57,535 nucleotides of DNA from an uncultured Bacteroidales bacterium (GTDB lineage: Bacteria > Bacteroidota > Bacteroidia > Bacteroidales > Paludibacteraceae): NCBI GenBank assembly GCA_902780235.1, contig CACZEL010000010.1, forward strand, positions 1-57,535, given 5' to 3'. Under the pieces are notes generated by a model that was not told the DNA's origin, made no database searches, and saw nothing but the letters and a program-made list of their open reading frames with translations. The stretch's first letter is position 1; each line of letters opens with the position of its first letter. This document shows positions 99-56,042 of this stretch, piece by piece. Both the position numbers and the translations under genes were made by a program.

Positions 99-890
99 GG
101 CGAGACCAACAGTCTCTTTGGCGTATTTGGCTGAGTCGTTTACGGGCCAGTCTGTTCCCCAACTTGCCAATAACACGCCATTCGGCAGAATTATGGTTGT
201 TGTGTCAGAGCCTCCTTTAGCAGGAATCGTCTGTACGCCCGTACAAAGCCCATCTACCGGCTCGCTGAGGCTGACATCGCAACGCATATCGCGATGACCG
301 GCATGCATGGTGTAGCGGGTGGACATATCAGCTGTTAGCTCTTGGCTGTTAGCTGTTGGCACTATCCATCCCTTAACTGCGACCTCGATGGTAGCCTCAT
401 TCTTTTTCTGCGAGACGATACGTTGAGAGCGTTCTGCAACAGGCTCGATATGTACCTGCTTCTTGCCGTTCCAATACTTGACAGAACCGACACCTACCGT
501 GCCTGAGACGCGGAGAATATCATCGCCGTAACCGAGGGCGAGGAGAGAGTCGTTGGGATACCAATGACTTTGAGCTAACTCTAACTGCGGTTTTTTCTTA
601 CAATAGGGATCGATGGTCTGTTTCTTATCAAAATAGATACGATAGGCCATCAGTTCGGACTCGACCGCTACGCCGTGGTGGTGAAGCTGATGGTAAACAT
701 CCTCTTTCTCATCGGTCGTCCTCCATTCGGTGATCGGGTAACAATGACGCACTTTCTTGCCCTCCGCCATTACCGCGTAGCCGGGACGGACACTATCTGC
801 CTCCGTCCCGATCTTCCAAAACGATGTCGCTACCCGCGGGCTGCAACCCGCGAGTAGCAAAACAGGAAGTATTTTAATTGATCTTAACAT
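84..890 (-). CDS. DUF4861-family lipoprotein, C-terminally truncated
   Basis: Probable DUF4861 protein, a family that accompanies pectin and rhamnogalacturonan enzymes in Bacteroidales. Residues 1-16 are a lipoprotein signal with the lipobox Cys at 16. The family core is visible at about 92-145 (YCKKKPQLEL, WYPNDSLLALGYGDDILRV) and 190-265 (TRYTMHAGHRDM, SWGTDWPVND, YAKETVGLAV). As I recall, family members run to about 380-400 residues; this one stops at 268, immediately after YAKETVGLA. Its last codons (V-T-I-H-stop) lie in the 97-bp terminal repeat, so the 3-prime end has probably been cut off. Residues 177-188 come from a heptad tract. The start overlaps the GH28 stop by 17 nt, which suggests translational coupling. 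Confidence 0.75.
   Translation of the reverse strand: MLRSIKILPVLLLAGCSPRVATSFWKIGTEADSVRPGYAVMAEGKKVRHCYPITEWRTTDEKEDVYHQLHHHGVAVESELMAYRIYFDKKQTIDPYCKKKPQLELAQSHWYPNDSLLALGYGDDILRVSGTVGVGSVKYWNGKKQVHIEPVAERSQRIVSQKKNEATIEVAVKGWIVPTANSQELTADMSTRYTMHAGHRDMRCDVSLSEPVDGLCTGVQTIPAKGGSDTTTIILPNGVLLASWGTDWPVNDSAKYAKETVGLAVTIH
331..361 (-). repeat. heptad tract, AGCTGTT/GGCTGTT family, in frame
   Basis: Four degenerate 7-nt words (AGCTGTT, AGCTCTT, GGCTGTT, AGCTGTT) lie inside the DUF4861 gene and encode TANSQELTA between two conserved strands. The same word family recurs at 32758-32796 and there encodes [11 protein letters not shown]. Confidence 0.75.
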
Positions 891-3157: not shown

Positions 3158-3199
3158 CAATTTACCATTTGATCATTTACTATTTACAATTTATTTACC
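3158..3199 (-). repeat. junction tract, CATTTAC/ATTTGATC family
   Basis: Degenerate 7-8-nt words (ATTTACC, ATTTGATC, ATTTACT, ATTTACA) fill the space between truA and the upstream flippase. They also encode the flippase's final VNKL and stop codon. Related tracts lie at 7211-7250, 29961-30011 and 30210-30256. Confidence 0.65.
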
Positions 3200-5940: not shown

Positions 5941-5974
5941 CGTTATGTCGTTATTACGTCATGACGTCATGACG
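5941..5974 (-). repeat. octad tract, CGTYATKA family, between FKBP genes
   Basis: Four contiguous 8-nt words (CGTTATGT, CGTTATTA, CGTCATGA, CGTCATGA) lie between the two FKBP genes, next to the stop codon of the upstream one. The same words, in another order, occur at 53637-53670 about 48 kb away. Confidence 0.8.
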
Positions 5975-6563: not shown

Positions 6564-6598
6564 AATATTAATTATTAATTTTTAATTCTTAATTTTTC
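6564..6598 (-). repeat. junction tract, AATTTTT/AATTCTT family
   Basis: Heptads AATTTTT, AATTCTT and AATTTTT, preceded by degenerate ATTATT units, lie between the soluble FKBP gene and ribE. They encode the last two residues and stop of ribE. The same family appears at 14829, 15075, 17859, 23431 and 52464. Confidence 0.7.
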
Positions 6599-7210: not shown

Positions 7211-7250
7211 AAGTCATTTATTCATTTAATCATTTACCATTTCTTTATTC
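7211..7250 (-). repeat. junction tract, CATTTATT/CATTTACC family
   Basis: Words CATTTATT, CATTTAAT, CATTTACC and ATTTCTTT fill the 78-nt gap between the second flippase and ribE. A small inverted repeat (CATACG/CGTATG, 7259-7281) sits next to it. No promoter is visible in the gap. Confidence 0.55.
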
Positions 7251-9945: not shown

Positions 9946-9978
9946 CCTTTCAACTTTCACTTTTCACCTTTCACCTTA
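9946..9978 (-). repeat. junction tract, CCTTTCA/ACTTTCA family
   Basis: Words CCTTTCA, ACTTTCA, CTTTTCA and CCTTTCA run from the stop codon of the peptide-transporter gene to the start of the coiled-coil gene. Related tracts occur at 19180-19206 and, in frame, at 50221-50250. Confidence 0.7.
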
Positions 9979-13095: not shown

Positions 13096-14457
13096 TTATC
13101 GTTTCGCGCCTCTACCTATTCTTTCCCATCGGATACCATGCTTATCTTTATCTACACTCAACCAGATAAACACCGGTCTTCCGACCACATGATCTTCGGG
13201 CACAAAGCCCCAATACCTACTATCCGCACTGTTATGCCTGTTATCGCCCATCATCCAGTAATAGTCCATCTCGAACTCATACTCCTCGCCTATCGCGATC
13301 GGTTTGAACTCATAGGCATCGGCAATGCGCTTATAGATCCAGTAGTTCTCTTCGGTGATCAAAATCCTATCGCCCTTCCGCGGAATATAAATCGGACCGT
13401 AGTTGTCGCGTGTCCACGTGTTATGTCCCAAAGGATAAACGGCTCCACCGCGCTCTTCGGCTTCAAGCTCAATCGCCAGCACATGCGGATTCTTACTCAA
13501 TTCTTCTTTCATTGCCTTCGTCAGCGGGAAATGCCATGTAGTTGCATCAATCTGCATTCTGTCAGCTACACTCACGCCAAGTTTTTCAAAATATTTCGCG
13601 CCGAACACATGTCCGTCCGTGAATACCAGATAATTCAACTGTACACCCTCCCTCTCCGGTTCGCGCTGCCAATCCTTTGTACTTTGTACTTTGTCACTTT
13701 GTCCCTTTGTATAGACGATATTATCGGCTATACGTAAACTGTCTCCCGGTGTACCCACACAACGTTTCACGTAGTTCTCACGCCGATCAACCGGTCGTGT
13801 CACGATCTCACCAAAGACATCCTTGCGTGCTTTGATCACATGCTCACCGTAATAATGTTTCAGCGTGTAGTAGTCGGGATTTTGCATGTTCAGACAGACG
13901 GTATCACCTGCCGGGAAGTTGAACACGACGATATCGCCTTTCTGCGGACTCGTCCAACCCGCCAAACGCTTATAACTCCAATGCGGCTTGTCCAAATAAC
14001 TCTTCCCGCCGCCTAACCATTCGGGCATCGTGTGTTGAACCAGCGGCATACTCAACGGCGTCTGCGGCACACGTGCGCCATAGGCCATCTTGCTTACATA
14101 CAGGAAGTCACCTACGCGCAAACTCTTCTCCAAACTCGAACTCGGGATCTGGTAGTTCTGGAAGATATACAGATTGATGAAATACACCGCTACCAACGCA
14201 AACACGATCGCATCGATCCAGGAACATAAGGTGTACAGTCCAGGTTTCGTGTCTTTGTACTTGCGCCACCAGTTATAGTTGATATACTTCGTCGTGAAAG
14301 CATCCACGATGATCGGCAGCAACACCAACCAACCCAGACTCTTCCAATCGCCCCATGCAACCCAAACCACGAACGCAATATACAATGCGCTCCATATTCC
14401 TGCGCGGATCCATCCTCCGCGCTCCACTTCTGCTATTCTATCTTTAAAACTTTTCAT
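13096..14457 (-). CDS. lepB: signal peptidase I, large Bacteroidales form
   Basis: Inner-membrane serine protease that removes signal peptides from exported preproteins. The 453-aa form has hydrophobic segments at about 18-36, 40-55 and 80-100, then IPSSSLEKSLRVGDF with the nucleophilic Ser at 108, YVKRCVGTPGDSL with the general-base Lys at 231, and GDNRHNSADSRYWGFVP near 415. Residues about 251-264 (GQSDKVQSTKDWQ) are encoded by a heptad tract just after the catalytic Lys region, presumably in a surface loop. No promoter is seen immediately upstream, so it is probably read from the dapB promoter. Confidence 0.95.
   Translation of the reverse strand: MKSFKDRIAEVERGGWIRAGIWSALYIAFVVWVAWGDWKSLGWLVLLPIIVDAFTTKYINYNWWRKYKDTKPGLYTLCSWIDAIVFALVAVYFINLYIFQNYQIPSSSLEKSLRVGDFLYVSKMAYGARVPQTPLSMPLVQHTMPEWLGGGKSYLDKPHWSYKRLAGWTSPQKGDIVVFNFPAGDTVCLNMQNPDYYTLKHYYGEHVIKARKDVFGEIVTRPVDRRENYVKRCVGTPGDSLRIADNIVYTKGQSDKVQSTKDWQREPEREGVQLNYLVFTDGHVFGAKYFEKLGVSVADRMQIDATTWHFPLTKAMKEELSKNPHVLAIELEAEERGGAVYPLGHNTWTRDNYGPIYIPRKGDRILITEENYWIYKRIADAYEFKPIAIGEEYEFEMDYYWMMGDNRHNSADSRYWGFVPEDHVVGRPVFIWLSVDKDKHGIRWERIGRGAKR
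13674..13710 (-). repeat. in-frame heptad tract in lepB, ACTTTGT family
   Basis: Words CCTTTGT, ACTTTGT, ACTTTGTC, ACTTTGTC and CCTTTGT lie within lepB and encode TKGQSDKVQSTKD. A nearly identical tract lies in coaE at 15809-15844 and encodes IKVQSDKVQSTKY, although the two proteins are unrelated. Confidence 0.85.
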
Positions 14458-14607: not shown

Positions 14608-14670
14608 TCAATCATCAATCATCAATTATCAATTATCAATCATCAATCATCAATTATCAATCATCAATTA
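14608..14670 (-). repeat. nine tandem TCAATYA heptads abutting the dapB stop
   Basis: Nine uninterrupted 7-nt units fit TCAATYA, with the degenerate position reading C,C,T,T,C,C,T,C,T. The array ends at the dapB stop codon (14671). It is the longest and most regular heptad array in the window. Confidence 0.9.
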
Positions 14671-15339
14671 TTATACCATCTGTTCTGCAGCCAGTACTGC
14701 TCCTAACGCAAATCCTCTTCTTCCTTTCGCCACATGCGTAATAATAATCGTATCTTCTTCGCTATCCCATTTTACCTCATGTGTACCCGGTACTTCCCCC
14801 TCTCGAATGGATTCAATCGGTACATCGTAATTTTTAATTTTTAATTTTGAATTTTTAATTTCCTCGCATAGCGTCTTTGCGGTACCTGATGGTTTGTCGA
14901 GTTTATGGATATGGTGAGTCTCGGTGATTGACGGCATGTACTGTGGGTGAGCTTTCATCGCTGAGGCTAATTGCTTATTGAGTTCAAAGAAAATATTGAC
15001 GCCTACCGAGAAGTTACTGCTCCATACTAACATCGTCTTACCCGTTTCATCGGTAATGACAGTCTTATTGTCCTCAATTTTTAATTCGTAATTTTTAATT
15101 TTTAATTCCTCCGGTTTCCACCCTGTAGTTCCGCACACGACAGGCACGCCTTGCGCCCACGCGCGTAAAATATTATCCTTCGCCGTACCCGGTGTAGTAA
15201 ACTCAATCGCCACTTCGGCATCCTTCAGATCGAAGTCATCCCCCATGTCAATACGTGCCACGATCTCGTGGCCTCTACTCAGGGCAATCTCTTCGATCAT
15301 ATGCCCCATTTTGCCGTATCCTATTAGTGCTACTCTCAT
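14671..15339 (-). CDS. dapB: 4-hydroxy-tetrahydrodipicolinate reductase with two in-frame repeat inserts
   Basis: NAD(P)H-dependent reductase of the diaminopimelate/lysine pathway, cytoplasmic. From the conserved start MRVALIGYGKMG (ATG 15339, downstream of its own promoter; an in-frame ATG at 15402 lies upstream of that promoter) the protein is 222 aa. Motifs: nucleotide-binding GYGKMG at 7-12, CGTTGW at 69-74, and the catalytic block ETHHIHKLDKPSGTA at 140-154. Residues about 78-92 and 162-173 (KIKNYELKIEDN, NSKLKIKN) come from AATTTTT-type heptad tracts inserted in frame at two loops. Confidence 0.95.
   Translation of the reverse strand: MRVALIGYGKMGHMIEEIALSRGHEIVARIDMGDDFDLKDAEVAIEFTTPGTAKDNILRAWAQGVPVVCGTTGWKPEELKIKNYELKIEDNKTVITDETGKTMLVWSSNFSVGVNIFFELNKQLASAMKAHPQYMPSITETHHIHKLDKPSGTAKTLCEEIKNSKLKIKNYDVPIESIREGEVPGTHEVKWDSEEDTIIITHVAKGRRGFALGAVLAAEQMV
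14829..14862 (-). repeat. in-frame heptad tract 1 in dapB, AATTTTT family
   Basis: Words AATTTTT, AATTTTT, AATTTTG, AATTTTT and AATTT inside dapB encode KNSKLKIKNY, after the catalytic HHIHKLDKPSGTA block. Confidence 0.85.
15075..15108 (-). repeat. in-frame heptad tract 2 in dapB, AATTTTT family
   Basis: Words AATTTTT, AATTCGT, AATTTTT, AATTTTT and AATTC inside dapB encode ELKIKNYELKIE, a visible 7-residue peptide repeat, just after CGTTGW. Confidence 0.85.
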
Positions 15340-15429: not shown

Positions 15430-16017
15430 TCAATTTTTACACATCCAAAGTGTTATTTTATCCACCAATTCAGTGATACTTGTCTTACCATCGTTTACGA
15501 CTAGCAGGTCGCCGGAAGGGATGTTTTGTGCCTTAATACGCGCGCGTACCTTATCTATATTAGCGGGAGAGGCGTCGCCGTGATAGTCGCGGGCGATAGT
15601 TCGGGCAATACGAATCTCTTCAGGGGCATCCACAACGATGATACGATCGCAGAGGATATCGAGACCTGACTCATACAATATCGCGGACTCTACAAAATCG
15701 GGCTTGCGTTTCATGATATCCAATCCAACTGCAGGATGAACAATGGCGTTGAGTGCTTCTAATAACCGCGAATCTTCAAACACCCTCTTCGCAACATATT
15801 CGGTATTATACTTTGTACTTTGTACTTTGTCACTTTGTACTTTAATAAACGCTTCTTCGCCTAACAGATCGATGATCTCTTGCTGTACGTCGGAGTTCTC
15901 GGCGATGATCCGTTTGGCTTCTTGGTCGCAGTCATAGACCGTGTACCCGCGTTTGGCGAGTTCTCGAGCGATCGTGCTCTTTCCGCTTCCTATGCCTCCT
16001 GTGATACCGATGATCAT
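15430..16017 (-). CDS. coaE: dephospho-CoA kinase with in-frame repeat insert
   Basis: Last step of coenzyme A synthesis: ATP-dependent phosphorylation of the 3'-OH of dephospho-CoA. The 195-aa reading from ATG 16017 (MIIGITGGIGSGKST, P-loop 7-15) is preferred; an in-frame codon at 16050 overlaps the MBOAT gene. CDQEAKRII near residue 30 and the ILYESG and RDYHGDA regions fit the family. Residues about 58-71 (IKVQSDKVQSTKYN) derive from an ACTTTGT heptad tract, inserted before EYVAKRVFED. Confidence 0.94.
   Translation of the reverse strand: MIIGITGGIGSGKSTIARELAKRGYTVYDCDQEAKRIIAENSDVQQEIIDLLGEEAFIKVQSDKVQSTKYNTEYVAKRVFEDSRLLEALNAIVHPAVGLDIMKRKPDFVESAILYESGLDILCDRIIVVDAPEEIRIARTIARDYHGDASPANIDKVRARIKAQNIPSGDLLVVNDGKTSITELVDKITLWMCKN
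15809..15844 (-). repeat. in-frame heptad tract in coaE, ACTTTGT family
   Basis: Four to five ACTTTGT words, one extended to ACTTTGTC, lie inside coaE. The translation shares the peptide KVQSDKVQSTK with the lepB insert at 13674-13710. Confidence 0.88.
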
Positions 16018-17886: not shown

Positions 17887-19176
17887 ACTTCCCTCCAACA
17901 TCCACTCTGCCACCGCATTGCCGGCCTTGCGTGCTCCACTACGGGTAAAATGTACGCCATCCGAACCTGCTAAACCGATCTCTTGCCAACGCGCCATGCT
18001 TCCTGCGCCGCCCATCCAGCGGTAGAGACTGAAATACGCGATATTTTCTTCCAATGCCATCTTACGCAGTAACTTATCCATATACGGCACCATGGGATAA
18101 GTCTGCCATTCGCCGTCTATCTGCGTCAACATATCGCTCGGACCGATAAAGAGGATAGAGGCTTGCGGTGCACAAGCACGCAAATACTGCACTTGCTGCC
18201 GAAGTCCTTTGACGATACCTTGAATCGTACCCGGGTTCTTGTTCGACGGTATGGCGTTACCACCAAACTGCATAATGATCAACTGCACATTCTGCTCGCG
18301 GTAGAAAGTAACCAACTGCTCCCGATCCATCTTGGTGAACACCAAGCCCAGACATCCGCGCATAGGAATATTATCTACAATAACACCTGTATCGCTTTGT
18401 TGGGAGAGACCATAGACCTTCCCTTGTCCGCTGAGGAACACACTGTCGCCGGCGAAAGAATAATGTACCGAACTATCGGCAAAGACACGCCATTTCGTGT
18501 ATCGCTTTCTGCCGTCCAAAGGTGTACAAATCGCCGTCAGTTCTTCGCTGCCTTGGACCAAACTGTCGTTCATGACCGCGACTTGACCCATTACGCCATA
18601 CATCCCGTCGTCCCGTTGATCTCGTTTGGGGCCATAGACTAAATAACGTTTGGGACCTTGTGCCGGTTGAATCCAACGATCGTTCATTCGTAACTGCTGC
18701 TTCACCGTACGACTCGGAATGGTCTGCGCCAAAGGCAACAAACCGGCTCCAGAACCGCCGTACTTATTCTGCAAGGCTTCGCGTATCTGTTGACTCATTC
18801 GGTCTTCTTCGATCTGGCTGTCTCCGTAGTGCAAGACACGCACTACCTTATTGCCGCTCTCTGCCAGCGAAGCATAGAATGAACTTAAGAAAACGCGGCT
18901 GTCGGTTGTGGAGTCCACCACGATCTTCGGAATGATTACTTCCGGTTCTTTGGCTATGACGGTGTCAGGCTCCGCTTCTACTTCGACTTCTGCTTCTGCA
19001 AAAACCGGAAACTCTTCAATCGTATCATTCTCTGAAACCTCAACACTGATTTCTGAATCCTGAATGCTGAATTCTGAATCCTTATGCAACAACTGCCCAT
19101 TTGGAAATGCTTTATACAGCACTCCCAACAGACCCATTACCACGGCTATGAAAATCAGAACTTGATACGGTTTCAT
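17878..19176 (-). CDS. SGNH/GDSL-hydrolase-like membrane-anchored protein
   Basis: Protein of 432 aa with an N-terminal membrane anchor (about residues 6-25), then a low-complexity linker to about 85, then an SGNH-type domain: VLHYGDSQIEEDRM (block I Ser), IIMQFGGNAIPS, ILFIGPSDM and the C-terminal GSDGVHFTRSGARKAG with the catalytic Asp-x-x-His pair. Its position upstream of the MBOAT gene indicates a two-component O-acetylation or deacetylation system for a surface glycan in the periplasm. Residues about 36-52 come from a CTGAATC heptad tract in the linker. Confidence 0.85.
   Translation of the reverse strand: MKPYQVLIFIAVVMGLLGVLYKAFPNGQLLHKDSEFSIQDSEISVEVSENDTIEEFPVFAEAEVEVEAEPDTVIAKEPEVIIPKIVVDSTTDSRVFLSSFYASLAESGNKVVRVLHYGDSQIEEDRMSQQIREALQNKYGGSGAGLLPLAQTIPSRTVKQQLRMNDRWIQPAQGPKRYLVYGPKRDQRDDGMYGVMGQVAVMNDSLVQGSEELTAICTPLDGRKRYTKWRVFADSSVHYSFAGDSVFLSGQGKVYGLSQQSDTGVIVDNIPMRGCLGLVFTKMDREQLVTFYREQNVQLIIMQFGGNAIPSNKNPGTIQGIVKGLRQQVQYLRACAPQASILFIGPSDMLTQIDGEWQTYPMVPYMDKLLRKMALEENIAYFSLYRWMGGAGSMARWQEIGLAGSDGVHFTRSGARKAGNAVAEWMLEGSEN
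19047..19081 (-). repeat. in-frame heptad tract, CTGAATC family
   Basis: Words CTGATTT, CTGAATC, CTGAATG, CTGAATT, CTGAATC encode DSEFSIQDSEIS in the linker of the SGNH protein. The same words recur in two surface-protein genes at 35119-35146 and 54182-54213. Confidence 0.85.
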
Positions 19177-21979: not shown

Positions 21980-23856
21980 AATAATCCCTCCTTGTCTAAT
22001 TGTAACATATGATAGAGCTCTTTGGTAGAGCCATGTTCTACAAACTGATCTTTTACACCCAAACGAACCACGCGTGGACTATATCCGTGGTCAGCCATCC
22101 ACTCTAATACCGCACTACCCAAACCGCCGGTGATCATCCCGTCTTCAGCCGTTACGATAGTCTTGAACTTCTTTCCAACCTCGTGCAAAATATCCTCGTC
22201 TAAAGGCTTCAACCACCGCATATCGTAATGCGCTATGCTTTCGACTTTTGACTTTTGACTTTCGACTAAATCTATCGCTTCGCTCATGGGGTTGCCGATA
22301 GCGCCGATCGTCAGTACAGCGATGTCTTTGCCGTCACGAAGTTTGATGCCTTTGCCGTATTCTACATCTCGAGATCTCAAAGTCTCGATCGGAGTGCGTC
22401 CTCGCGGATAGCGGATCGCTACAGGGCCTTCCAAGGTCTCCGCCAGGATCATCATCTGCTTGAGGTCCTCTGCGGTGCGCGGGGCACAGATCTGCATGTT
22501 CGGAATCGGGCGTAAATACGCCAAATCCAAGAGTCCGTGGTGGGTGGCACCATCATTACCGACGATACCGGCACGGTCGATACAGAAGACTACATGCAGG
22601 TTTTGCAGCGCTACATCATGGACGATGTTGTCATAGGCACGTTGCAAGAACGTCGAGTACTCGTTGCAGTAAGGCAACATGCCGGCTTTGGCAAGACCGG
22701 CACTGAAGGTCACGGCGTGTCCTTCGGCAATGCCGACATCGAAAACGCGATCAGGCAACTCTTTCTGCATGATACTCATCGAGCAGCCACTTGGCATAGC
22801 CGGCGTAATACCTACGATCTTTTCGTTCTTCTTCGCTAACTCCAAGAGCGTCTCGCCGAACACCTCCTGCCATAAGGGCTGCACTTTGACATCTGCATTC
22901 TGAATTCTTTCGCCAGAGGCAACATCAAACTCTCCGGGTGCATGCCAAACGGTTTGGTCGTTCTCGGCGGGCGCGTAGCCTTTGCCTTTCTTGGTAATGA
23001 TATGCAGCACTTTCGGTCCGCGGTGGTTTTTGATCTCATTCAAAATACGCACCAAACCCACTACGTCATGACCATCGGTCGGCCCGAAGTAGCGGATATT
23101 AAGACCTGTGAAGATATTACTGGGCTGCTTACTGAGCGCGGCTTTCCAGTTGTTGTTGCGACGAACAATACGTTGCCGTTTCTCCTCGTTCATGAGGTGA
23201 CACTTGACGGCCAACTTATACAGCCTCCAGCGCCATTTGTTATACGTCTCACTGGTTGTTAGATCGACGAGATATTGCGTAAAACCGCCTTTCAACGGAT
23301 CAATCGCCATGTGATTGTCGTTCAGCACGATGAGCAGGTCGTTTTTGTCCATCGAGGTATTGTTCAATCCCTCAAAAGCCAAACCTCCGGTCATGGCACC
23401 ATCTCCGATAATAGCAACTACATTGCGAGATAATTTTGAATTTTGAATTTTTAATTTTGAATTAGCAATATCAAGGCCTAAAGCCGCAGATATGCTATTG
23501 CTCGCGTGTCCGGCGATGAATGCATCGTACTCGCTTTCTTTCGGATTCGTGAAGGGACTTAGACCCTTGAACTGTCGGTTGGTATGAAAACGATCGCGAC
23601 GACCGGTTAGAATCTTATGGGCATAAGCCTGATGACCGACATCCCACACCAACTTATCGTTCGGTGTATCGAAGACATAGTGCAAGGCTACAGTCAACTC
23701 GATCGTGCCCAAAGACGAAGCCAAATGACCGGGGTTCTTACTGAGCGCCTCGATGATAAAATCCCGCAATTCCGCACATACCTCCGGCAATTCCTCCACA
23801 GGAACCTTCTTCAAATCTGCCGGCGAATCAATCTTATTTATGTACTTATATTCCAT
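21946..23856 (-). CDS. dxs: 1-deoxy-D-xylulose-5-phosphate synthase with two in-frame repeat inserts
   Basis: Thiamine-diphosphate enzyme condensing pyruvate and glyceraldehyde 3-phosphate, first step of the MEP isoprenoid pathway. The ATG at 23856 (MEYKYINKIDSPADLKK) is chosen because the promoter at 23900-23930 lies within a longer upstream reading. The protein is 636 aa. Motifs: WDVGHQAYAHKILTGRRD at about 73-90, ThDP motif GDGAMTGG at 151-158 and the transketolase pyrimidine domain with GIAEGHAVTFSAGLA. Inserts at about 130-144 (NSKLKIQNSKLS, just before the ThDP motif) and near 555 (ESQKSKVES) are heptad tracts. Confidence 0.95.
   Translation of the reverse strand: MEYKYINKIDSPADLKKVPVEELPEVCAELRDFIIEALSKNPGHLASSLGTIELTVALHYVFDTPNDKLVWDVGHQAYAHKILTGRRDRFHTNRQFKGLSPFTNPKESEYDAFIAGHASNSISAALGLDIANSKLKIQNSKLSRNVVAIIGDGAMTGGLAFEGLNNTSMDKNDLLIVLNDNHMAIDPLKGGFTQYLVDLTTSETYNKWRWRLYKLAVKCHLMNEEKRQRIVRRNNNWKAALSKQPSNIFTGLNIRYFGPTDGHDVVGLVRILNEIKNHRGPKVLHIITKKGKGYAPAENDQTVWHAPGEFDVASGERIQNADVKVQPLWQEVFGETLLELAKKNEKIVGITPAMPSGCSMSIMQKELPDRVFDVGIAEGHAVTFSAGLAKAGMLPYCNEYSTFLQRAYDNIVHDVALQNLHVVFCIDRAGIVGNDGATHHGLLDLAYLRPIPNMQICAPRTAEDLKQMMILAETLEGPVAIRYPRGRTPIETLRSRDVEYGKGIKLRDGKDIAVLTIGAIGNPMSEAIDLVESQKSKVESIAHYDMRWLKPLDEDILHEVGKKFKTIVTAEDGMITGGLGSAVLEWMADHGYSPRVVRLGVKDQFVEHGSTKELYHMLQLDKEGLLCALLSLAPEK
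22238..22268 (-). repeat. in-frame heptad tract in dxs, CGACTTT/TGACTTT family
   Basis: Words CTTTCGA, CTTTTGA, CTTTTGA, CTTTCGA encode ESQKSKVES between the pyrimidine and C-terminal domains. Confidence 0.82.
23431..23465 (-). repeat. in-frame heptad tract in dxs, AATTTTG/AATTTTT family
   Basis: Words AATTTTG, AATTTTG, AATTTTT, AATTTTG encode NSKLKIQNSKLS between LGLDIA and RNVVAIIGDG. The dapB insert at 14829-14862 gives nearly the same peptide. Confidence 0.85.
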
Positions 23857-29055: not shown

Positions 29056-30234
29056 CTAAACGCGTTCCGCAAAGAATAAAGTTGGCTTGCCGGCAACACG
29101 GCAACCGATTACAAAGGCTGTACCTCCATCCCGGAGGTGCAGTTTTTTCTTTAATTGGTCGGGCGTTAAGGGATAATTGCGGCAAAGAATATTCGCTTGT
29201 TTGAGGTCCTGCTTTTCAGTAATACGCCAAACACGACCGGGGAAGTTTGGGATGAGGGTGTCGGAAGCGTAAAGATGGGTGTTTACGTCCAATTTAAGGA
29301 AATGAAATCGCTCGGCTATCAACTTGTAAGCGCCCGCTTTGAGGATGGCGGAACTGGGCTCGTAAAGATATAGACCGGCTTTGCCTGACAGACCGTTACA
29401 TTGACAGACCGCTTGCGCTGTTAGACCGCTTACGCTGTTAGACTCTTCTTCGCGGGTGAATGTGAAGGATTGATCCTTTTTGTCGAGGTCTATCGCGGTT
29501 ATTTGGCCTGTGCCTCCGCTAAGCAATAAGAGTTCTTTGACTTCGTTCTTGATAGCTACGACGTAGATGTCCCAGGAAAGGTGTACGGTGTACGGTGTAA
29601 GGTGTAAAATTGCTTGTGTGAGATCAAGCATAGGTGAAAGCTTCAGTAATATACGTCCATTTTCTGTCAAGTGAGCGAGAAGAGTAGGTAACAACTCCAT
29701 CACATTCGGTGTGCAGTCTTCGAGACGAAAAACCTTTCCTCCATGCGAGTCGCGTCTTGCGGGATCAAGGAAGATAAGATCGTATTGTCCGGCTGAGGCT
29801 AAGAACTCTTCAGCGGACGAATTGTGAATCGCGATAGGCTTGTTTGCGAAATTGTGCGTGGCTATGCGGCAGAGTTCAGCGTTCTGCTCGACGTAGTCGG
29901 TGTGTGCAAAGTTTTCGCTCAAGAAATAGGTGTCTACTCCGTAGCCGCCGGTTAAGTCAAGACATTTACCATTTGGACATTTACCATTTGGACATTTACC
30001 ATTTACTATTTCTGCTTTGTACTTAGCTGCCAACTCCGACGAACACTGTTCACAGCTGAGGCGGACGGGATACCACCAGCCGGGGAAAGAAGCAAAAGTG
30101 GGCAACTTATCTGCTGTCCGCTCGCGTCCTTCGACCTGTTGGAGAAACCAACGCCATTCCTCGTCGCTGAGGTGCTTGTATTTAGAGCGCTGAAGAGCTA
30201 AGTCAAAGCTATTTACCATTTTATCATTTACCAT
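29056..30234 (-). CDS. class I SAM-dependent methyltransferase with THUMP-like C-terminus
   Basis: Protein of 392 aa resembling the PG_1098-type family. SAM motif I is LDLTGGYGVDTYF at about 92-104, motif IV-like FLDPARRD near 165, and a C-terminal THUMP-like end (LKKKLHLRDGGTAFVIGC, PTLFFAERV). It probably methylates an RNA, but the target is not known to me. The first residues (MVNDKMVN) and residues about 75-91 (VNGKCPNGKCPNGKC, right before motif I) come from word tracts; further tracts encode LTPYTVHLS and a Ser/Ala/Cys-rich piece. Four tracts make it the most repeat-laden gene in the window. An alternative start is 30219. Confidence 0.88.
   Translation of the reverse strand: MVNDKMVNSFDLALQRSKYKHLSDEEWRWFLQQVEGRERTADKLPTFASFPGWWYPVRLSCEQCSSELAAKYKAEIVNGKCPNGKCPNGKCLDLTGGYGVDTYFLSENFAHTDYVEQNAELCRIATHNFANKPIAIHNSSAEEFLASAGQYDLIFLDPARRDSHGGKVFRLEDCTPNVMELLPTLLAHLTENGRILLKLSPMLDLTQAILHLTPYTVHLSWDIYVVAIKNEVKELLLLSGGTGQITAIDLDKKDQSFTFTREEESNSVSGLTAQAVCQCNGLSGKAGLYLYEPSSAILKAGAYKLIAERFHFLKLDVNTHLYASDTLIPNFPGRVWRITEKQDLKQANILCRNYPLTPDQLKKKLHLRDGGTAFVIGCRVAGKPTLFFAERV
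29386..29444 (-). repeat. in-frame 16-17-nt word tract in the methyltransferase gene
   Basis: Units of TGACAGACCG..., TGACAGACCGCTTGCGC and TGTTAGACCGCTTACGC in tandem, with a partial last unit. They encode a stretch including SVSGLTAQAVCQCNGLSGK. The unit is longer than the heptads elsewhere. Confidence 0.7.
29580..29609 (-). repeat. in-frame heptad tract, GGTGTAC/GGTGTAA family
   Basis: Four perfect heptads, GGTGTAC twice then GGTGTAA twice, encode LHLTPYTVH in the methyltransferase. Confidence 0.85.
29961..30011 (-). repeat. in-frame tract with ACATTTACCATTTGG units
   Basis: Fifteen-nt units (ACATTTACCATTTGG, twice in full and then in part) encode NGKC-P-NGKC-P-NGKC immediately before SAM motif I. 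Confidence 0.85.
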
Positions 30235-35041: not shown

Positions 35042-38014
35042 TTATTTCACACGCACACCTTGTATCGTATAGATCGCGTTCTCGCGAATGATATAGATCT
35101 GTCCGTTGATGAGGACTTTCTGAATACTGAGTTCTGAATCCTGAACACGCTCGATGTCTTGGAACGGCACGATATAGTCCGGATCCTCGTCCCACATACC
35201 CTTATGGTCACGGATAGAACCCGCCGTAGAGTAATTGTACGAGTTACAGAACAGTTCCATGAACTTACCTACATATGTCTTTCCATCCTCAGCCAGGATG
35301 CGGAACTGGCCGGTGTAATAACCGTAGCGATAACCGCCTTGTGCCGCCTTATCATCATCGTAAGCCACAAATTGGAGACGTACTTCTGCATCGGTAGCCA
35401 TCACACATCCGGCTTGTGTACCATTCGTATTGAGGTAACAGCTCTCCAGGTCGATGTTGCCGCGGGCTACGTTATAAATGCCGGAGATGGCACCCTCCTT
35501 GTCTGTCCAGATGAGGAAAGTAGGCATCGGCATGCCTGTACCGCCTTCTTCACCGGTAGCGAACATAACCATCCAGCCGTATTTGCCTTCGGGGAACTGG
35601 CTGGTGTACTGATCCAGATATCCGGCTTCCATACCCCACACATTCATAACGACAGCATCCTCAGGAATGTCAGCGGCCTTCGAAACGAAGGTATTTCCCT
35701 CAACGAGGTTAGACGCCTCGAAATAGTTACCGTTTGTACCTTGGTTGAACGCTTGAACGGTCCAGGACCAGGTTCCGTCTTTCGGCATCGTGGTAGTTTT
35801 GGTAGTGCCGCTTACGGTCAGCGTTGAGTAAAACTCTCCGTCGCAGAAGAGGGTGATTACATATCTATCCGCTTCGGTTACAGCATTCCAGGAGAAGGTC
35901 ACGTTATCACCGCCGAAGACCTCTGCGTGAGCATCCGTAGGCTCGTAGTTATTGGTTCCGACAGTAAAGCTGGTCGTCACCTCCGGTCCCATCGGGTTAT
36001 TGTTCTTATCGACTACCTGTACGATAGCGGTGTAGGACTTGCCCTCCATCACATCGACTGTCAGCGGACTTGCCGGACGGGCCTTGGTGTCGAGGTTGTC
36101 GTAAGCCACGGTCTCTCCGGACCAAACGCGTACATAAAGACGCTGTCCTTGCGCAAACTCCGGCGCATCCCATGTGAGGGTAGCGGTGGTCTTATCCCCT
36201 GCTACAACAGCCTGCAGGTTCTCCACTTTCTTCTCTATGAGCGTGAATGGGATAGTAGCTAAGGTCTCGCCCATTGAGTAACCTGATTCACCTTGTACGA
36301 GCGTCAGCACCTGTACCTGATAGGTACCCGGGCGAAGCGCAAGGATTGGAGCAACAGCTGTACCTACATTGATTACGGAGTTAGCCCAGGCGTCTCCGCG
36401 CTGCATTCCATCTTCCTCTACATTGAGGATCCACTTGGTGGAGCAATAGAAGTGGTTCTCATAGTCATCGCTCTCCGAGAAGCCGTCGAAGATACCGGCT
36501 TGCTGATCTTGATAGGCAAAACGGTCGCACTCCTCTGTGGTCGCCACGATACCTGCAATCAGCGTACCGGTAGCGTCCGCCAAGCCGATAGCGAAAGCAG
36601 AGCTGTTATACGAATACCAAGTGAACGAAGCATCGCAATACGTCAGTGCATAGATACCTGCATCGGGGATGTCCTCCTGCGACGGATCTACATTACCGGA
36701 TTCGCCAATAAGGGCTACTACGAAATTATCCATCGAAGCGGAAGCCAAGTCACTCGTACCGCCTGCGAAACGGAAAGCGATATAGGTCGCGTTAGCAGGC
36801 AGGTCGCTCAGTTCTACCACTACGTGCTGATAAGTCAGCGTACGCGGCAGGGTCTGCAAAGAAACGAATGTCGATGCTTTGTTCGGATTCGTCATATAAC
36901 CTACCTCCAACTGACCGCATCCATCGGTCGTGAGGCTGGTCTTATAATCGAAGGCTACCTCCAGCGTATTGAGCACAGCATTGAATGCCGGCATTGCAAA
37001 TACCTGCTGACTCGTTGGACCACCACCAATCACTTGCAAGTGCGCCTGGCCTTGCACGGTAGAAGCATTGTTTTCATCGTCGTACGTCACATCTTTGACT
37101 ACGCTGATCGTTCCGGTTGTTGCAACCGTCCAGCAGTCGGGTTCTACGATCGTGAATCCCGAACCCGAAGCATCGCGGGTGAAGGTCTCCAGCCAAGGAA
37201 TATCAAAGGGCTCACATGGTGTCTTAAAACTGGTCTTAGGAGCCAAACTCTGCTCGTCTGCCGAGCAGTAGGAACGTACGTAGAACTCATACTCGGTCTC
37301 TTCGTACAAACCGCTCAGCGTTACGGTCTTTGCAGAGATGTTCGTAGCTACCGACCAGTCCGCTTCTTCGCCTTTCTCAACGATCATATACTGATACTCG
37401 GTTGCTGTACCCTGCCACGAGAAAGTAGCCGCGTGTGCCGACAGGTTACTCAGCACGATATTTGACGGATTCTCGCAGTTAGACGTACCGCGGAGCGAAA
37501 CACCATACACGTCATCTACATAAATACGATCCGTTCCGCCTGCTTGGTGGAAACCGATGTAGATTGCTTGACCGGTGTATGCGCTCAAATCGATGGTGTA
37601 TTCCACCCATTCGCTTTTCCACAACTGATGAGCAGCATCTCCTTTGGATTTGGAGGTGTAATAGGTGTCCAGCACTTCGAAGGAACCGGCATCGGTACCG
37701 CTCATGGATACTTCGATACGCAGTTCACCGGTGGAAGCATAGTCACCGATACAAGCGGAGAAATGCAGACTCTCTCCTGCGTCCGGACGCAACTGGGGTG
37801 TAATCAACCAGTTCTCCGTACTCGCCACTTCCTGAATATAAGCGCAGTTATGCTGCAACTTAACACCTTTCTTCCAGCCGTATCCGGCGTAGCCGTCAAT
37901 GACAGACCATCCTTCCGGTGGAAAACTCTCGCCCTCAAACCCCTCATTGAGTGTCTGGGCACTCATACTCGCGCAACACATCGCTGCCGCGAAGAATAAA
38001 AAGATTTTTTTCAT
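35042..38014 (-). CDS. secreted multidomain surface protein (anchor-J and Fn3 domains) with C-terminal tail
   Basis: Protein of 990 aa from ATG 38014 (MKKIFLFFAAAMCCASMSAQ, a clear signal peptide). Anchor-J/MAM-like jelly-roll domains lie at about 22-180 (LNEGFEGESFPPEGW to IYVDDVYG) and 285-455; fibronectin type III-like modules at about 190-275, 615-695 and 705-785 (ATFSWQGTATEYQYM, YEFYVRSYC). The end, about residues 960-990, is the tail INGQIYIIRENAIYTIQG-V-R-V-K, shared with three other proteins here and probably a type IX secretion signal. A CTGAATC tract encodes DSELSIQ just before the tail. It probably binds host or substrate glycans or proteins; ligand unknown. Confidence 0.87.
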   Translation of the reverse strand: MKKIFLFFAAAMCCASMSAQTLNEGFEGESFPPEGWSVIDGYAGYGWKKGVKLQHNCAYIQEVASTENWLITPQLRPDAGESLHFSACIGDYASTGELRIEVSMSGTDAGSFEVLDTYYTSKSKGDAAHQLWKSEWVEYTIDLSAYTGQAIYIGFHQAGGTDRIYVDDVYGVSLRGTSNCENPSNIVLSNLSAHAATFSWQGTATEYQYMIVEKGEEADWSVATNISAKTVTLSGLYEETEYEFYVRSYCSADEQSLAPKTSFKTPCEPFDIPWLETFTRDASGSGFTIVEPDCWTVATTGTISVVKDVTYDDENNASTVQGQAHLQVIGGGPTSQQVFAMPAFNAVLNTLEVAFDYKTSLTTDGCGQLEVGYMTNPNKASTFVSLQTLPRTLTYQHVVVELSDLPANATYIAFRFAGGTSDLASASMDNFVVALIGESGNVDPSQEDIPDAGIYALTYCDASFTWYSYNSSAFAIGLADATGTLIAGIVATTEECDRFAYQDQQAGIFDGFSESDDYENHFYCSTKWILNVEEDGMQRGDAWANSVINVGTAVAPILALRPGTYQVQVLTLVQGESGYSMGETLATIPFTLIEKKVENLQAVVAGDKTTATLTWDAPEFAQGQRLYVRVWSGETVAYDNLDTKARPASPLTVDVMEGKSYTAIVQVVDKNNNPMGPEVTTSFTVGTNNYEPTDAHAEVFGGDNVTFSWNAVTEADRYVITLFCDGEFYSTLTVSGTTKTTTMPKDGTWSWTVQAFNQGTNGNYFEASNLVEGNTFVSKAADIPEDAVVMNVWGMEAGYLDQYTSQFPEGKYGWMVMFATGEEGGTGMPMPTFLIWTDKEGAISGIYNVARGNIDLESCYLNTNGTQAGCVMATDAEVRLQFVAYDDDKAAQGGYRYGYYTGQFRILAEDGKTYVGKFMELFCNSYNYSTAGSIRDHKGMWDEDPDYIVPFQDIERVQDSELSIQKVLINGQIYIIRENAIYTIQGVRVK
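35119..35146 (-). repeat. in-frame heptad tract next to the sorting tail, CTGAATC family
   Basis: Words CTGAATA, CTGAGTT, CTGAATC encode QDSELSIQ immediately upstream of the C-terminal tail, as in the 54182-54213 tract. Confidence 0.8.
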
Positions 38015-49807: not shown

Positions 49808-50605
49808 TTATTTAAAAATGCTGTTAAGCAGTTTGGCCAAACGAATGCCGGCTATATAGAGTTGCTTCTCGCAGTCCGCATGCCAGCGATAGATATAATG
49901 GTACGTGTTTCCGTCCCAATTCTCCTGATACGCGTAGATCGCTTCTGTCAGATGGTACGTCTGCAGCAACAACTCCTCATCCGTTGCCGCCTCAATCGCC
50001 TTGCGCTCTTTGCCGTACATGTCTTCGATCATCTGCGCATACTCCGTATAAGAATATCCCTGCGAATCAATCAATTTCGTGTCCCAAACCGAGTGCAGGT
50101 TCGTGTGATTGGAAAACCATTTCATCTTCACCGCATTGCCGCCCTTGTCATCCATGTGCGCCATATGCATCGGGCAGTACCTGTCCCCGCTCAAATGAAT
50201 AATGAACCGCAAGGTATGCTCTTTCACCTTTAACCTTTCACCTTTCACCTCGAGTACGAGCGAATCGAGCGCACGAAAGAGATTTCCGCCTTCGGCAGGG
50301 TAGTGGATGAGCGCGTCGGCTACCAAGCTGTCACTCATTCCACCGGCAAAGTCCTGATAGTGCCAGCCGTCTTTGATACTCTGCTTGTAGATCGTGTCGC
50401 TCTTGATCTCATCCGGCCAGTTTGCCCAGTAGATGATCCCTCGGTTGCCGAGGATGGCGTCCACGCTCTTCTGCGTTTTCTTACTCAAATGGTCATACGC
50501 GATCTTCGCAATGATACGATGACCCTCCTGTCCCCAAGAGAGGGCAGGTAAGGAGTATGCGCACGCGCATACACATGCAATAATAAGGAGAATTGTTCGT
50601 TTCAT
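49808..50605 (-). CDS. secreted S1/P1-type nuclease
   Basis: Zinc-dependent nuclease or 3'-nucleotidase degrading single-stranded DNA and RNA outside the cytoplasm. From ATG 50605 (MKRTILLIIACVCACAYS; the in-frame codon at 50632 lies in the promoter) it is 265 aa. The mature protein would start at Trp in SWGQEGHRI, the N-terminal zinc ligand of the family. Other ligands: WANWPDEIK, GWHYQDF, LRFIIHLSGDRYCPMHMAH and NLHSVWDTKLI. A TTTCACC heptad tract adds GERLKVKEH just before the H-x3-D helix. First gene of a five-gene operon. Confidence 0.92.
   Translation of the reverse strand: MKRTILLIIACVCACAYSLPALSWGQEGHRIIAKIAYDHLSKKTQKSVDAILGNRGIIYWANWPDEIKSDTIYKQSIKDGWHYQDFAGGMSDSLVADALIHYPAEGGNLFRALDSLVLEVKGERLKVKEHTLRFIIHLSGDRYCPMHMAHMDDKGGNAVKMKWFSNHTNLHSVWDTKLIDSQGYSYTEYAQMIEDMYGKERKAIEAATDEELLLQTYHLTEAIYAYQENWDGNTYHYIYRWHADCEKQLYIAGIRLAKLLNSIFK
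50221..50250 (-). repeat. in-frame heptad tract in the S1/P1 nuclease gene, CTTTCAC/CTTTAAC family
   Basis: Words CTTTCAC, CTTTAAC, CTTTCAC, CTTTCAC encode VKGERLKVKEH, in front of the zinc-binding IIHLSGD segment. Confidence 0.82.
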
Positions 50606-50629
50606 AGACTTATGAACCAAAATCCGCTG

Positions 50630-52463: not shown

Positions 52464-52498
52464 AAAATTCTTAATTCTTAATTTTTAATTCTTAATTA
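52464..52498 (-). repeat. junction tract, AATTCTT/AATTTTT family
   Basis: Words AATTCTT, AATTCTT, AATTTTT, AATTCTT, AATTA fill the gap between tgt and lptF and include the tgt stop codon. Confidence 0.8.
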
Positions 52499-53636: not shown

Positions 53637-53670
53637 CGTCATGTCGTCATTACGTTATTACGTCATGACG
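53637..53670 (-). repeat. octad tract, CGTYATKA family, between tgt and panD
   Basis: Words CGTCATGT, CGTCATTA, CGTTATTA, CGTCATGA. They encode the last residues and TGA stop of panD. It is the partner of the tract at 5941-5974. Confidence 0.82.
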
Positions 53671-54010: not shown

Positions 54011-54030
54011 GTTTCAATCTTTTGCGGCTG

Positions 54031-54061
54031 CAAAAGTACTGCTTTTTTTTGATTTATGCAA
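54031..54061 (-). promoter_or_regulatory. panD promoter
   Basis: Minus-strand TTG (54059-54061), 20-nt spacer, TACTTTTG (54031-54038), about 20 nt upstream of the panD start. Confidence 0.72.
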
Positions 54062-54080
54062 ATTTAATTCTTTTTTTGAA

Positions 54081-56042
54081 TCATTTTTGGCCTTTTTGGA
54101 CGACTTCTCCTGTGATATGGAAAATTTTATCATCCCGAATGATGTAGATTCTGCCGTCCTTCAGCTCTTTTCTGACAGCTGATTTCTGAATACTGAATTC
54201 TGAATCCTGAATACTTGTCGAAACCGTTTCTCCGATTTCCACAGCAAAACGTCCTTCGTGTGTTCCGGCGTCCAGATGAACGGTATGATCCGTGGATCTG
54301 ATTCCGGTCACAGTATCGAAAATCGTACATGGTACATTATTCCTTCGTACATTTATCTTGTATTCGCCTGCTTGCTCGATCTGTACGCCTACCGGCACAC
54401 GCGTCACACTGTCCGGTAGCATGTTGGCCGCCAGGCGTTCGTAACCCACCATCGTGTATATATTGGCTTTGCCGGCATTGATTTCCTTACTCAGATCCCG
54501 CCCGAAATCAAAACCATTCGTCACACGCGCCTCATCGCTCAAACGGATATAGGTTCGATCGCAGAAGGTCTCATTCTGCTCTAACGTTAACTCAAGCTCT
54601 TCATAACTGGTATCCCTTTGCCGAGCCACGATGCCTGCCGGTTTGGTGACATCCAGCCAAGTGATGGCATCTTTATTCTGCACCAGATAAGCCTGCGTCG
54701 GAGTGAACAAAAACCCTTCGCTTGATCGTACGGTCAGACTGTTGTCCGCTGTGTTCCATTCGTAGAAATATTCCAGTCCTTCTACGCCGCTCGGATTACT
54801 GAAACTCGGTACACCGATACACCGCCAATAACTATCTTTCTTTGTCCGGTCGCCTTCTGCACCCAACGAGGCAGATAGATCGATCGTGCATTCGTAGTCG
54901 CTGCCCAACGCCGCTAAGGTCGCATTGGTCGTTACCGGATCAGTTATGTTTGATCGGGCAGGGAAGAAAAGGGTAGCTATCTCGGCATCATTCGCCCAGA
55001 TGGAGCTGTTATCTTCATCCATGCTAATGGTATTCAGTTGCAGCAGGTACCCTTCTCCGGCATGCAGGACATCATCCGTGTCGCCGAACATGATCCAGTT
55101 GCTCGTTCGTTCCGCGAAGAAACCCTCTTCGGCGCGACCTTGGCCATCGTAATAGAGGATCCGCCAATCGGTACCGACCGTTCCGATGCCATAGATGTCG
55201 CCTATCCGCACGTCAAACGGAAAAGAGATGAAGTAGTTATACCGCTCGTACGCACTCCGTGTGTCGTCATTCAAAGCCGTCTTGCTGAATCGCATAACGC
55301 CGTAGGCCTTTTTGGTCGCGTCGTCTGTTATATCCACGCGCGAAGCAGTAGCTTGCGCATCGCGCAGCAAGACGATGTCAGCGTCCGCGGGATAGATGAT
55401 CAGAGGGCTGATATAATAGCTGTCTAATAGTCCTCCGCAGAGGGCGCCGGTATGCAGCGAGGTCTTGAGGTAATACGTTCCGGCGGTGGTAGGTGTCGTA
55501 AAACAAACGGCGTTCTTGCCGGCAGAAGCAGCACGCTGAAAATGGATGTCTGCTACCTCATTCTCGCAGGTAGGATCATAATAAACGCCCCAACAAACGG
55601 CGGCATCTTCGTCCGGCACGGAGGCAATAGTAGGTACGATCGTCATCGACGTACCGGCTGCCGTAGGACTGAAACTCAGATCTGTAACGGCTGCCTGGAT
55701 TTGTCCTGCAAAAAGGGAGATAATGAGCATAAAAAAAAGATTCCGTTTCCGGAAGAGCGATTTCCATGCTGCCCAAGTAGCAGCGAAGAAAAGCAGTATC
55801 AAAGCGTCGCCTACCGGAACCTCTTTGGACAGGCTCGTGCCGCCTGTATCAGGAGGGGTGATCCAACCGCTTCCGCTTCCTCCGATAGCTACTTTGCGAG
55901 GCGTTGAAGAGGCATTGGCAAAGGCCTTTTCAGCAGTATATTCTGAGGGTGTTTCCGTTCCAAAAGGGCAAAAAATAATACCGGTGTGACATTCACCGGT
56001 ATTAAGTATCAATTGGTTATGAGGTAATTCTGTTTTATCCAT
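54081..56042 (-). CDS. surface protein with unusual N-terminal membrane segment and C-terminal tail
   Basis: Reading of 653 aa without recognised enzymatic domains. The C-terminal 25 residues carry the shared tail (KDGRIYIIRDDKIFHITG-E-V-V-Q-K). The first 95 residues resemble the end of another protein: a Gly/Pro linker (GGSGSGWITPPDTGG) then PVGDALILLFFAATWAAWK-S-L-F-RKR, which looks like a membrane tail, followed by FFMLIISLFAGQIQA, which looks like a signal peptide for the rest. So either two genes have fused or the functional start is the internal Met near residue 104. Two heptad tracts lie near the C-terminus. Function unknown; probably envelope-associated. Confidence 0.72.
   Translation of the reverse strand: MDKTELPHNQLILNTGECHTGIIFCPFGTETPSEYTAEKAFANASSTPRKVAIGGSGSGWITPPDTGGTSLSKEVPVGDALILLFFAATWAAWKSLFRKRNLFFMLIISLFAGQIQAAVTDLSFSPTAAGTSMTIVPTIASVPDEDAAVCWGVYYDPTCENEVADIHFQRAASAGKNAVCFTTPTTAGTYYLKTSLHTGALCGGLLDSYYISPLIIYPADADIVLLRDAQATASRVDITDDATKKAYGVMRFSKTALNDDTRSAYERYNYFISFPFDVRIGDIYGIGTVGTDWRILYYDGQGRAEEGFFAERTSNWIMFGDTDDVLHAGEGYLLQLNTISMDEDNSSIWANDAEIATLFFPARSNITDPVTTNATLAALGSDYECTIDLSASLGAEGDRTKKDSYWRCIGVPSFSNPSGVEGLEYFYEWNTADNSLTVRSSEGFLFTPTQAYLVQNKDAITWLDVTKPAGIVARQRDTSYEELELTLEQNETFCDRTYIRLSDEARVTNGFDFGRDLSKEINAGKANIYTMVGYERLAANMLPDSVTRVPVGVQIEQAGEYKINVRRNNVPCTIFDTVTGIRSTDHTVHLDAGTHEGRFAVEIGETVSTSIQDSEFSIQKSAVRKELKDGRIYIIRDDKIFHITGEVVQKGQK
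54182..54213 (-). repeat. in-frame heptad tract next to the sorting tail, CTGAATC family
   Basis: Words CTGAATA, CTGAATT, CTGAATC, CTGAATA encode IQDSEFSIQ. The same words precede the tail in the 35042-38014 gene. Confidence 0.85.
54324..54355 (-). repeat. in-frame tract, GTACATGGTACATT family
   Basis: Words CGTACAT, GGTACAT, TATTCCTT, CGTACAT encode NVRRNNVPCT. They match, in reverse complement, the intergenic tract at 34976-35010. Confidence 0.72.

Follow-up and report, generated by a model that had tools for sequence, protein, structure and literature searches.

Dispersed arrays of tandem heptanucleotides are known from several groups of bacteria. Most work on them has dealt with intergenic repeats and has proposed polymerase slippage as their origin. 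In this study, such tracts are described in a 57.5-kb contig (G000:C10, analysed whole and referred to as the window) of a 2,278,966-bp Bacteroidales metagenome-assembled genome that is 78.6% complete. The nearest described sequences are the short tandemly repeated repetitive (STRR) sequences of the cyanobacteria Calothrix, Nostoc (GGGGA(C/T)T) and Microcystis and the GGGAATC repeats of Xanthomonas. In the parts of the two accounts drawn on, these are dispersed 7-nt units, with several words in some genomes and, in Nostoc, one fixed variable position in the unit; they lie near stop codons and between aligned genes and are over-represented outside coding DNA (PMC4692102, PMC4679880). TAACTGA direct repeats, described from Beggiatoaceae, some cyanobacteria and five Bacteroidetes, likewise form heptamer arrays near start codons, those of essential genes included, and differ between relatives, and Paludibacter propionicigenes, by name of the same family as the present genome, has two sets of them according to the available part of that work (MacGregor 2015; PMC4679880). 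Geobacter metallireducens also has dispersed arrays, of four or five 7-nt units: 49 copies with four GGGACCG-type units lie between and inside genes, and a second family occupies 16 sites, at 15 of which there are five MTYCTGA units. These are two fixed families proposed as regulatory, and exchange of words goes unmentioned in the accessible portion of the paper (PMC2700814). Small repeats in frame within metabolic genes are represented by the Rickettsia palindromic elements which, as far as the excerpted description goes, are about 150 bp long and palindromic, with a conserved peptide per family, and are not tandem heptamers (PMC10969869).

The tracts of the window match the cyanobacterial repeats in unit size, as a sequence-only reading of the contig had remarked. 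In contrast to the G-rich repeats of Nostoc and Xanthomonas, most of them are A-rich on the gene strand and they belong to many word families; between 46% (own-genome sample) and 63% (clade loci and window) are intragenic. The large repertoire also sets them apart from the two Geobacter families and from the TAACTGA system: about 120 canonical words occur among 418 tracts, and TAACTGA, far from dominating, is outside the 70 commonest. Heptanucleotide repeats themselves being already known elsewhere, what is new here is that the tracts occupy recurrent slots, namely gene-gene spacers and in-frame protein loops. Literature searches limited to open-licence PubMed Central papers gave no report of such tracts in Paludibacteraceae apart from the two P. 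propionicigenes sets, and so many coexisting words, an in-frame presence on this scale in housekeeping enzymes and slot-wise exchange of words between sister species were not found there either. Among the insertions and deletions that distinguish sister species of a rumen clade the tracts form a sizeable class; they lie in frame in housekeeping enzymes, and one orthologous slot holds different words in different species. This makes the origin and spread of heptamer repeats directly testable by comparing many species at the same slots, which are at the same time a natural record of enzyme loops that tolerate foreign peptide.

Tandem Repeats Finder (TRF) returned 61 overlapping rows for the window, which were merged by eye into 28 tracts from 330 to 54212 (Table 1), three weak 7- or 8-nt rows (17503, 51945 and 52950, scores 30-34) being excluded. 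All have 7- or 8-nt units, or multiples of these, except one with an 11-nt unit. This agrees with the roughly 30 heptanucleotide tracts of the sequence-only reading and is far above chance. High-scoring self-match segments of the window number 19 at lag 7 and 4 at lag 8, with 0 or 1 at the other lags from 1 to 13, and 13 and 7 at the multiples 14 and 21. In a 457,535-nt sample of the same genome, comprising the window and 20 stretches of 20 kb (the own sample), there are 126 segments at lag 7 and 27 at lag 8, set against a mean of 0 at both lags in three order-1 Markov resamples. Shuffled sequence does not explain this frequency, and the excess of tandem 7-nt units places the tracts among STRR-type repeats and long simple sequence repeats (LSSRs, 5-11 nt). 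Since the own sample also gives 18, 9 and 19 segments at lags 9, 10 and 11 (1 and 2 at lags 5 and 6), rarer 9- and 11-nt arrays exist as well. Chains of at least four identical 4-mers are present at 97 places at spacing 7, compared with 0-19 at other spacings from 5 to 16 and none in one Markov resample; an apparent pattern of a 4-nt core with three variable nucleotides is inseparable from this detection rule. In the own sample the median tract length is 31 nt.

The tracts are characteristic of one clade. Seventy-seven loci around trkA were compared, the named relatives being for the most part metagenome assemblies from rumen and gut, under the titles Paludibacteraceae or uncultured Bacteroidales, and the clade was taken as the 65 loci with a TrkA identity of about 84% or more, the 12 outside having 76% or less. 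At least one tract is present at 63 of the 65 clade loci, with 363 tracts altogether and a density of 0 to 7.8 per 10 kb, while the outside loci hold 0-3 tracts each (eight have none, four have some). Ten stretches from other families of the order contain 0 or 1 tract each.

Read on the gene strand, the word families AATTNAA, TAAATGN, ATTCAGN and GTGAAAG recur at 6, 4, 3 and 3 sites of the window, respectively, and GTCRAAA, TACAAAG, YYAACAG and the 8-nt CGTCATGA at two each. In the manner of a dispersed repeat family, the same word is found at many sites of the own sample (AAAGGTG in 16 tracts, AAAAATT in 11, AATAGCC in 9, and others). When the threshold is relaxed slightly, 418 tracts are counted in clade loci and window; their words represent 120 of the roughly 1,170 canonical words possible, and one of these 120 entries (2 tracts) is a run of N. 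Differences between units are concentrated in few columns, 647 being variable over the 351 tracts with at least four units, compared with 813 ± 8 for scattered changes (lowest of 200 shuffles, 787). Identical unit variants appear at many separate sites, such as GTC[G/A]AAA at 16, GTGAAA[G/A] at 17 and GC[T/C]AACA at 15, and one exact 21-nt variant order is found at five sites of the own sample. The recurrence of word families (at two to six window sites), the coexistence of many words and, in a statistical sense, the variation of units at fixed positions, all read earlier from the sequence, are therefore borne out. Word usage is also specific to the genome: with the own genome left out, word sharing (distance 0 or 1) is 0.148 within and 0.071 between genomes, label permutations giving a mean of 0.073 and a highest value of 0.097 in 500, and with it included the values are 0.126 and 0.070, against 0.03 for letter-shuffled words.

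Such slots are seen in dxs, which was detected in 96 of 101 sampled genomes of the genus. Among 106 dxs loci only L070 is split over two frames (contig ends truncate L086 and L087); the idea that many of the genes are broken was rejected, as the apparent internal stops in many orthologues fall within an upstream extension. Inserts occur at three sites, S1 before VVAIIGDG, S2 after RYPRGR and S3 before AHYDMRW, with sequences that differ and lengths that differ by whole codons between species. In a predicted model (mean pLDDT, the predicted local distance difference test, 74.5) each site lies between secondary-structure elements (H147-164/E175-179, E508-512/E533-536 and H550-562/E570-574, respectively), and the tract loops would be solvent-exposed. 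Alignment to the solved DXS chain 2o1s shows five-residue chain gaps at S1 and S3 and, near S2, a difference of only one residue. Where the flanks of a pair are 94% identical or more, the inserts reach 75% identity in two of three pairs at S1, one of four at S2 and one of four at S3; inserts from different dxs sites have a median identity of 0.33. L046 and L116, with flanks 95.1% identical, have inserts 98%, 29% and 40% identical at S1, S2 and S3, and for L051 and L116 (flanks 93.3%) the values are 33%, 51% and 47%. At S3 these three loci (flanks 92-95% identical) carry cassettes unrelated to one another, a GC-rich palindromic one (L046), a TCAG-type array (L116) and a GACAAAG array (L051).

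Turnover is also apparent outside dxs. When the window was compared by eye with the relative G037 and with locus L106, the tracts at 331, 3158, 9946, 14516, 14608 and 35118 could not be read. Among the others, that at 5941 is identical in G037, those at 7214, 13675, 17859 and 52466 have another word in G037 and that at 30211 another word in L106, the one at 15076 is present in L106 only, and the rest are absent, shortened or irregular. An automatic count over 24 pairs gave 54 comparisons with the same word, 20 with a different word, among which are variants of a shared core like TCAG, and 35 with no tract among 109 mapped, rates that are rough since 208 of the 317 comparisons were unmappable, both directions were counted and pairs share loci. 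Summed over eight clade pairs, 17 of 79 alignment gaps of at least 12 nt are period-7, compared with 0 of 14 in the one outside pair, a rough count because long tracts are split in alignments and a locus can belong to more than one pair.

Slots host amplified small repeats besides heptamer tracts, since a 75-nt element from S2 of L046 dxs is multi-copy. With 40 of 48 candidates scored, it has at least 16 matches in the L046 genome, the slot copy included; there are 9 and 13 in two other genomes and one each in the own genome and in G037, and matches across the five genomes are 77-100% identical. The small dispersed repeats of cyanobacteria described by Elhai in 2008 are reportedly very small, possibly mobile and multi-copy; the 75-nt element resembles them in being multi-copy.

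Taken together, these results suggest that the tracts form a kind of short DNA that is dispersed through one clade of the genus and draws on a limited repertoire of shared words, mostly 7 nt long and arranged in tandem, with lengths of 8, 9 or 11 nt less frequent. The source of new tracts would be mainly ectopic and not local: an array that is already degenerate would be copied in or inserted from another place in the genome. The incoming array would often replace the former content of the slot, and slippage would afterwards add or remove units. The tracts would be non-autonomous and probably neutral or selfish, with selection retaining them only where they are harmless, at gene-gene junctions and in exposed loops. 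At junctions the word may provide a stop codon, the tract ending beside the following start, and in loops a frame-preserving length and a word that reads as hydrophilic, stop-free peptide in that orientation would be tolerated. We give this combination of copy-in, slippage and selection about half of our confidence, as its predictions are seen in the data but long donor-recipient identity is rare.

Besides the roughness of the turnover rates, several observations count against this explanation. Within-genome word sharing could stem in part from genome base composition. For tracts of the same family in the own genome, the longest shared run of variant order averages 12.7 nt, slightly more than the 12.4 in unit-order shuffles, and reaches at least 28 nt in 1.1% of comparisons as opposed to 0.3%, so that direct donor-recipient copies are rarely visible. 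The counterpart of a tract contains the word as a seed slightly more often than expected (5.51 of 7 positions, against 5.17), and in full in 10 of 55 non-matching cases. The dxs pairs L049/L113 (flank 95.8%) and L048/L053 (93.5%) keep S1 and S3 and differ at S2 only. Distant stretches of the same genus, G011 (two), G022, G024, G069, G077 and G084, hold 0, 1, 4, 0, 0, 0 and 0 tracts; because these six members have few or none, the feature is confined to part of the genus and is not genus-wide. Finally, no clear enzyme was found among the candidates searched (Y1 transposase, reverse transcriptase and Ku).

Some of these points are what pure replication slippage would lead one to expect, in which 7-nt units are favoured by the replicative polymerase, arrays grow from chance local seeds and shared words reflect sequence preference. 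The slight seed excess, which fits some local slippage or losses, and the rarity of long shared variant orders are in its favour, as are the change in unit number between L049 and L113 and the finding, in the cited portions of the literature, that heptanucleotides are the commonest class in most LSSR-rich genomes, for which contact with the polymerase has been hypothesised (Mrazek 2007, via PMC4679880 and PMC4692102). The sharing of unit variants by independent sites, genome-specific word usage and the replacement of one word by an unrelated one in a fixed slot are nevertheless not expected from local slippage alone, whereas copy-in predicts all of them; furthermore, the full word is missing from the counterpart in 45 of the 55 non-matching cases. 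As the sole origin of the tracts we regard slippage as unlikely, although it is the strongest of the competing explanations. It is also rather doubtful that the clade actively rewrites its spacers and loops with arrays of its repertoire, whole cassettes being swapped at a fixed boundary with the flanks untouched. Were this so, loops of essential enzymes would be continuously re-diversified through a templated or copy-based pathway.

Differences at a slot could alternatively have been imported together with their flanks from other species by homologous recombination, the words themselves being old. Similar cassettes do occur at the same slot in distant species, and the left flank of dxs S2 is also unusually divergent in L049/L113 and L048/L053. 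At S3 of L046 and L116, however, there is one base difference in 45 nt on each side of unrelated cassettes, and the recurrence of a word at non-homologous sites of one genome would be left unexplained. Such allelic exchange thus seems improbable as the general source of the differences.

A further possibility is that the tracts are functional elements, convergent regulatory or translational sequences such as regulator sites or A-rich leaders bound by ribosomal protein S1, alike through selection. Their position relative to genes, called with a codon-usage gene caller written for the analysis, bears on this. Among 416 classified tracts of clade loci and window, which are not a random sample since all the loci surround trkA and dxs, 263 are within genes, 76 over a stop codon, 6 over a start, 61 between genes (40 co-directional, 14 divergent, 7 convergent) and 10 at locus edges. 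In the own sample 63 of 137 tracts (46%) are inside about 370 kb of coding sequence and 74 at junctions or between genes in about 88 kb, so that per base they are denser outside genes, as STRR-type repeats are, although the intragenic share is unlike that in Nostoc and Xanthomonas. Of the 167 co-directional junctions whose gap measures 10-50 nt, 56 have a tract. Co-directional junction tracts of all gap sizes number 115; 76 of them include the end of the upstream stop codon, and in 58 no more than 10 nt separate the tract end from the next called start. The higher density outside coding sequence, the A-rich junction tracts adjoining the next start codon and the translational role proposed for TAACTGA repeats in the part of PMC4679880 drawn on would all suit a function. 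On the other hand, the large numbers inside coding sequence, in both samples, and the fact that orthologous positions in housekeeping genes can hold one word, another or none make it, to our minds, an explanation with little probability.

Selection at the level of what is tolerated, on the other hand, explains well the one-sided orientation of words and the stop-bearing words at junctions. Inside genes orientation is mostly one-sided (GTCGAAA 18 to 1, GTCAGCC-type 17 to 0; AAAGGTG is 2 to 2), and junction words tend toward those with a stop on the sense strand. If reversed, 141 of 260 coding tracts would contain a stop and, among the 119 open in both orientations, 102 are more hydrophilic in the actual one; mean hydropathy is -0.79 for the 260 coding tracts and -0.07 for genes. 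The placement on the minus strand noted from the sequence holds within the window, with 12 tracts in 46 kb of minus-strand coding sequence and none in 5.7 kb of plus-strand, but not beyond it: four contigs together have 21 tracts in 123 kb of plus-strand and 42 in 247 kb of minus-strand coding sequence, so the restriction was a sampling effect. Strand-restricted placement was accordingly rejected, the own genome being without strand preference; a six-fold difference between the strands in the clade loci is read as coming from the gene set around trkA.

As to candidate machinery, the Y1 transposase (PF01797), the RAYT type that moves REPIN and REP elements, has no match in the own genome, an absence that is weak given its 78.6% completeness. 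At an E value of 0.001 it is found in 11 of 25 genus genomes with low scores (best 34.6 bits, eight above the 23-bit cut-off), so that it stays a candidate. Reverse transcriptase (PF00078) is in only 6 of 25, the own genome included, and is not clade-wide, contrary to what a diversity-generating or telomerase-like system would require, and Ku (PF02735) is in none of 21 genomes, which speaks against filler insertion by non-homologous end joining. The dedicated generating mechanism of the sequence-only reading may exist, dispersal beyond local slippage being supported, but these searches gave no clear enzyme. An assembly or binning artefact can be set aside as very improbable, even though nearly all the sequences compared are metagenome assemblies, because the tracts occur at almost all clade loci in genomes of many separate projects, the dxs reading frames are kept and the other families of the order have next to none.

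Other repeats were seen at the loci compared. The 75-nt repeat seems nested in a GC-rich palindromic element (CCTCCCC...AAGGGAGGG) in S2 of L046 dxs and also in L034, L044, L056 and L120; a loose pattern for this element gave 33 matches, spread over 21 of the 65 clade loci, and a single one in the own sample, while the 12 outside loci had none. Arrays of the GCTAACA/GCCAATA family form inverted pairs (L126:14740-14805, L126:15770-15833, L126:19893-19957, L134:2324-2386 and L141:13889-13964), in which the left arm is approximately the reverse complement of the right and which could therefore form hairpins; judging by sequence these are possibly terminators. In the alignment of L051 and L116 there is a 9-nt array, AACTAGNNN, in which six nucleotides form an invariant core and the other three positions vary, and near 7167 L073 has a long insertion relative to L075 that holds an 11-nt array (ATTAGTAGGTR).

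Table 1. Tandem-repeat tracts of the window, with words on the gene strand and their state in G037 and L106 where readable.
Position	Strand	Tract and context	Basis
330..360	-	YYAACAG, inside open reading frame 84-890	TRF, sequence, context
3158..3193	-	TAAATGN, fills spacer between 3184-4680 (stop within tract) and truA (2403-3155)	
5941..5974	-	8-nt CGTCATGA, between two FKBP-type isomerase genes; identical in G037	
6566..6597	-	AATTAAR, across stop codon of riboflavin synthase (6589-7209); absent in G037	
7214..7236	-	TAAATGA, 7/8-nt, upstream of riboflavin synthase; other word (AAATCGT) in G037	
9946..9977	-	GTGAAAG, from stop codon of 9976-11514 to next ATG	
13675..13711	-	TACAAAG, inside signal peptidase I; GTCAGCC tract at same place in G037, none in L106	
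14516..14558	-	11-nt unit (TTAGTGATTCC), intergenic	TRF
14608..14671	-	ATTGATR, longest 7-nt tract (8.7 units), touches dapB stop	
14828..14861	-	AATTAAA, inside dapB, in frame; absent in G037 and L106	
15076..15108	-	AATTAAA, inside dapB; present in L106, absent in G037	
15809..15843	-	GTACAAA, inside dephospho-CoA kinase; absent in G037 and L106	
17555..17586	-	GTCGAAA, inside DltB-like gene; absent in G037 and L106	
17859..17885	-	AATTAAR, over stop codon of 17878-19176 and next gene start; same in L106, GTGAAAG tract in G037	
19031..19082	-	ATTCAGN, inside 17878-19176; shorter in G037 and L106	
19181..19202	-	GTGAAAG, over trkH stop codon; absent in G037	
22238..22267	-	GTCRAAA, dxs slot S3; absent in G037 and L106; other words in other species	
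23432..23463	-	AATTCAA, dxs slot S1; shorter in G037; other words in other species	
29580..29606	-	TACACCG, inside 29056-30234; absent in G037 and L106	
29961..30011	-	7+8-nt compound (15-nt unit), inside 29056-30234; absent in G037 and L106	
30211..30244	-	TAAATGG, over start of 29056-30234; GAAGATT tract in L106	
32757..32795	-	YYAACAG, inside 32609-33505 (NagK-like); absent in G037 and L106	
33496..33525	-	ATTCATT, divergent intergenic region	
35118..35145	-	ATTCAGN, inside 35042-38041	
50221..50250	-	GTGAAAG, inside 49808-50632; irregular A-rich sequence in G037	
52466..52497	-	AATTAAG, touching tgt stop; 8-nt CGTTATGA-type tract in G037	
53637..53670	-	8-nt CGTCATGA, over stop of 53663-54010; absent in G037	
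54179..54212	-	ATTCAGN, inside 54081-56042; absent in G037	

The genes of the window include housekeeping enzymes and a SusC-type outer-membrane protein, among others. A tRNA search of the window found none, and no family was matched in an Rfam scan of it at gathering thresholds. Recurrent GCAAAGGTACTGCTTTTTTTTGATAT-type sequences, which resemble Bacteroidetes promoters, are present at 54020-54069 and 56057-56151 of the window and at many other sites of the own genome. Close to the end of the window, at 57003-57087, a 39-nt unit is repeated in 2.2 copies with 73% matches.

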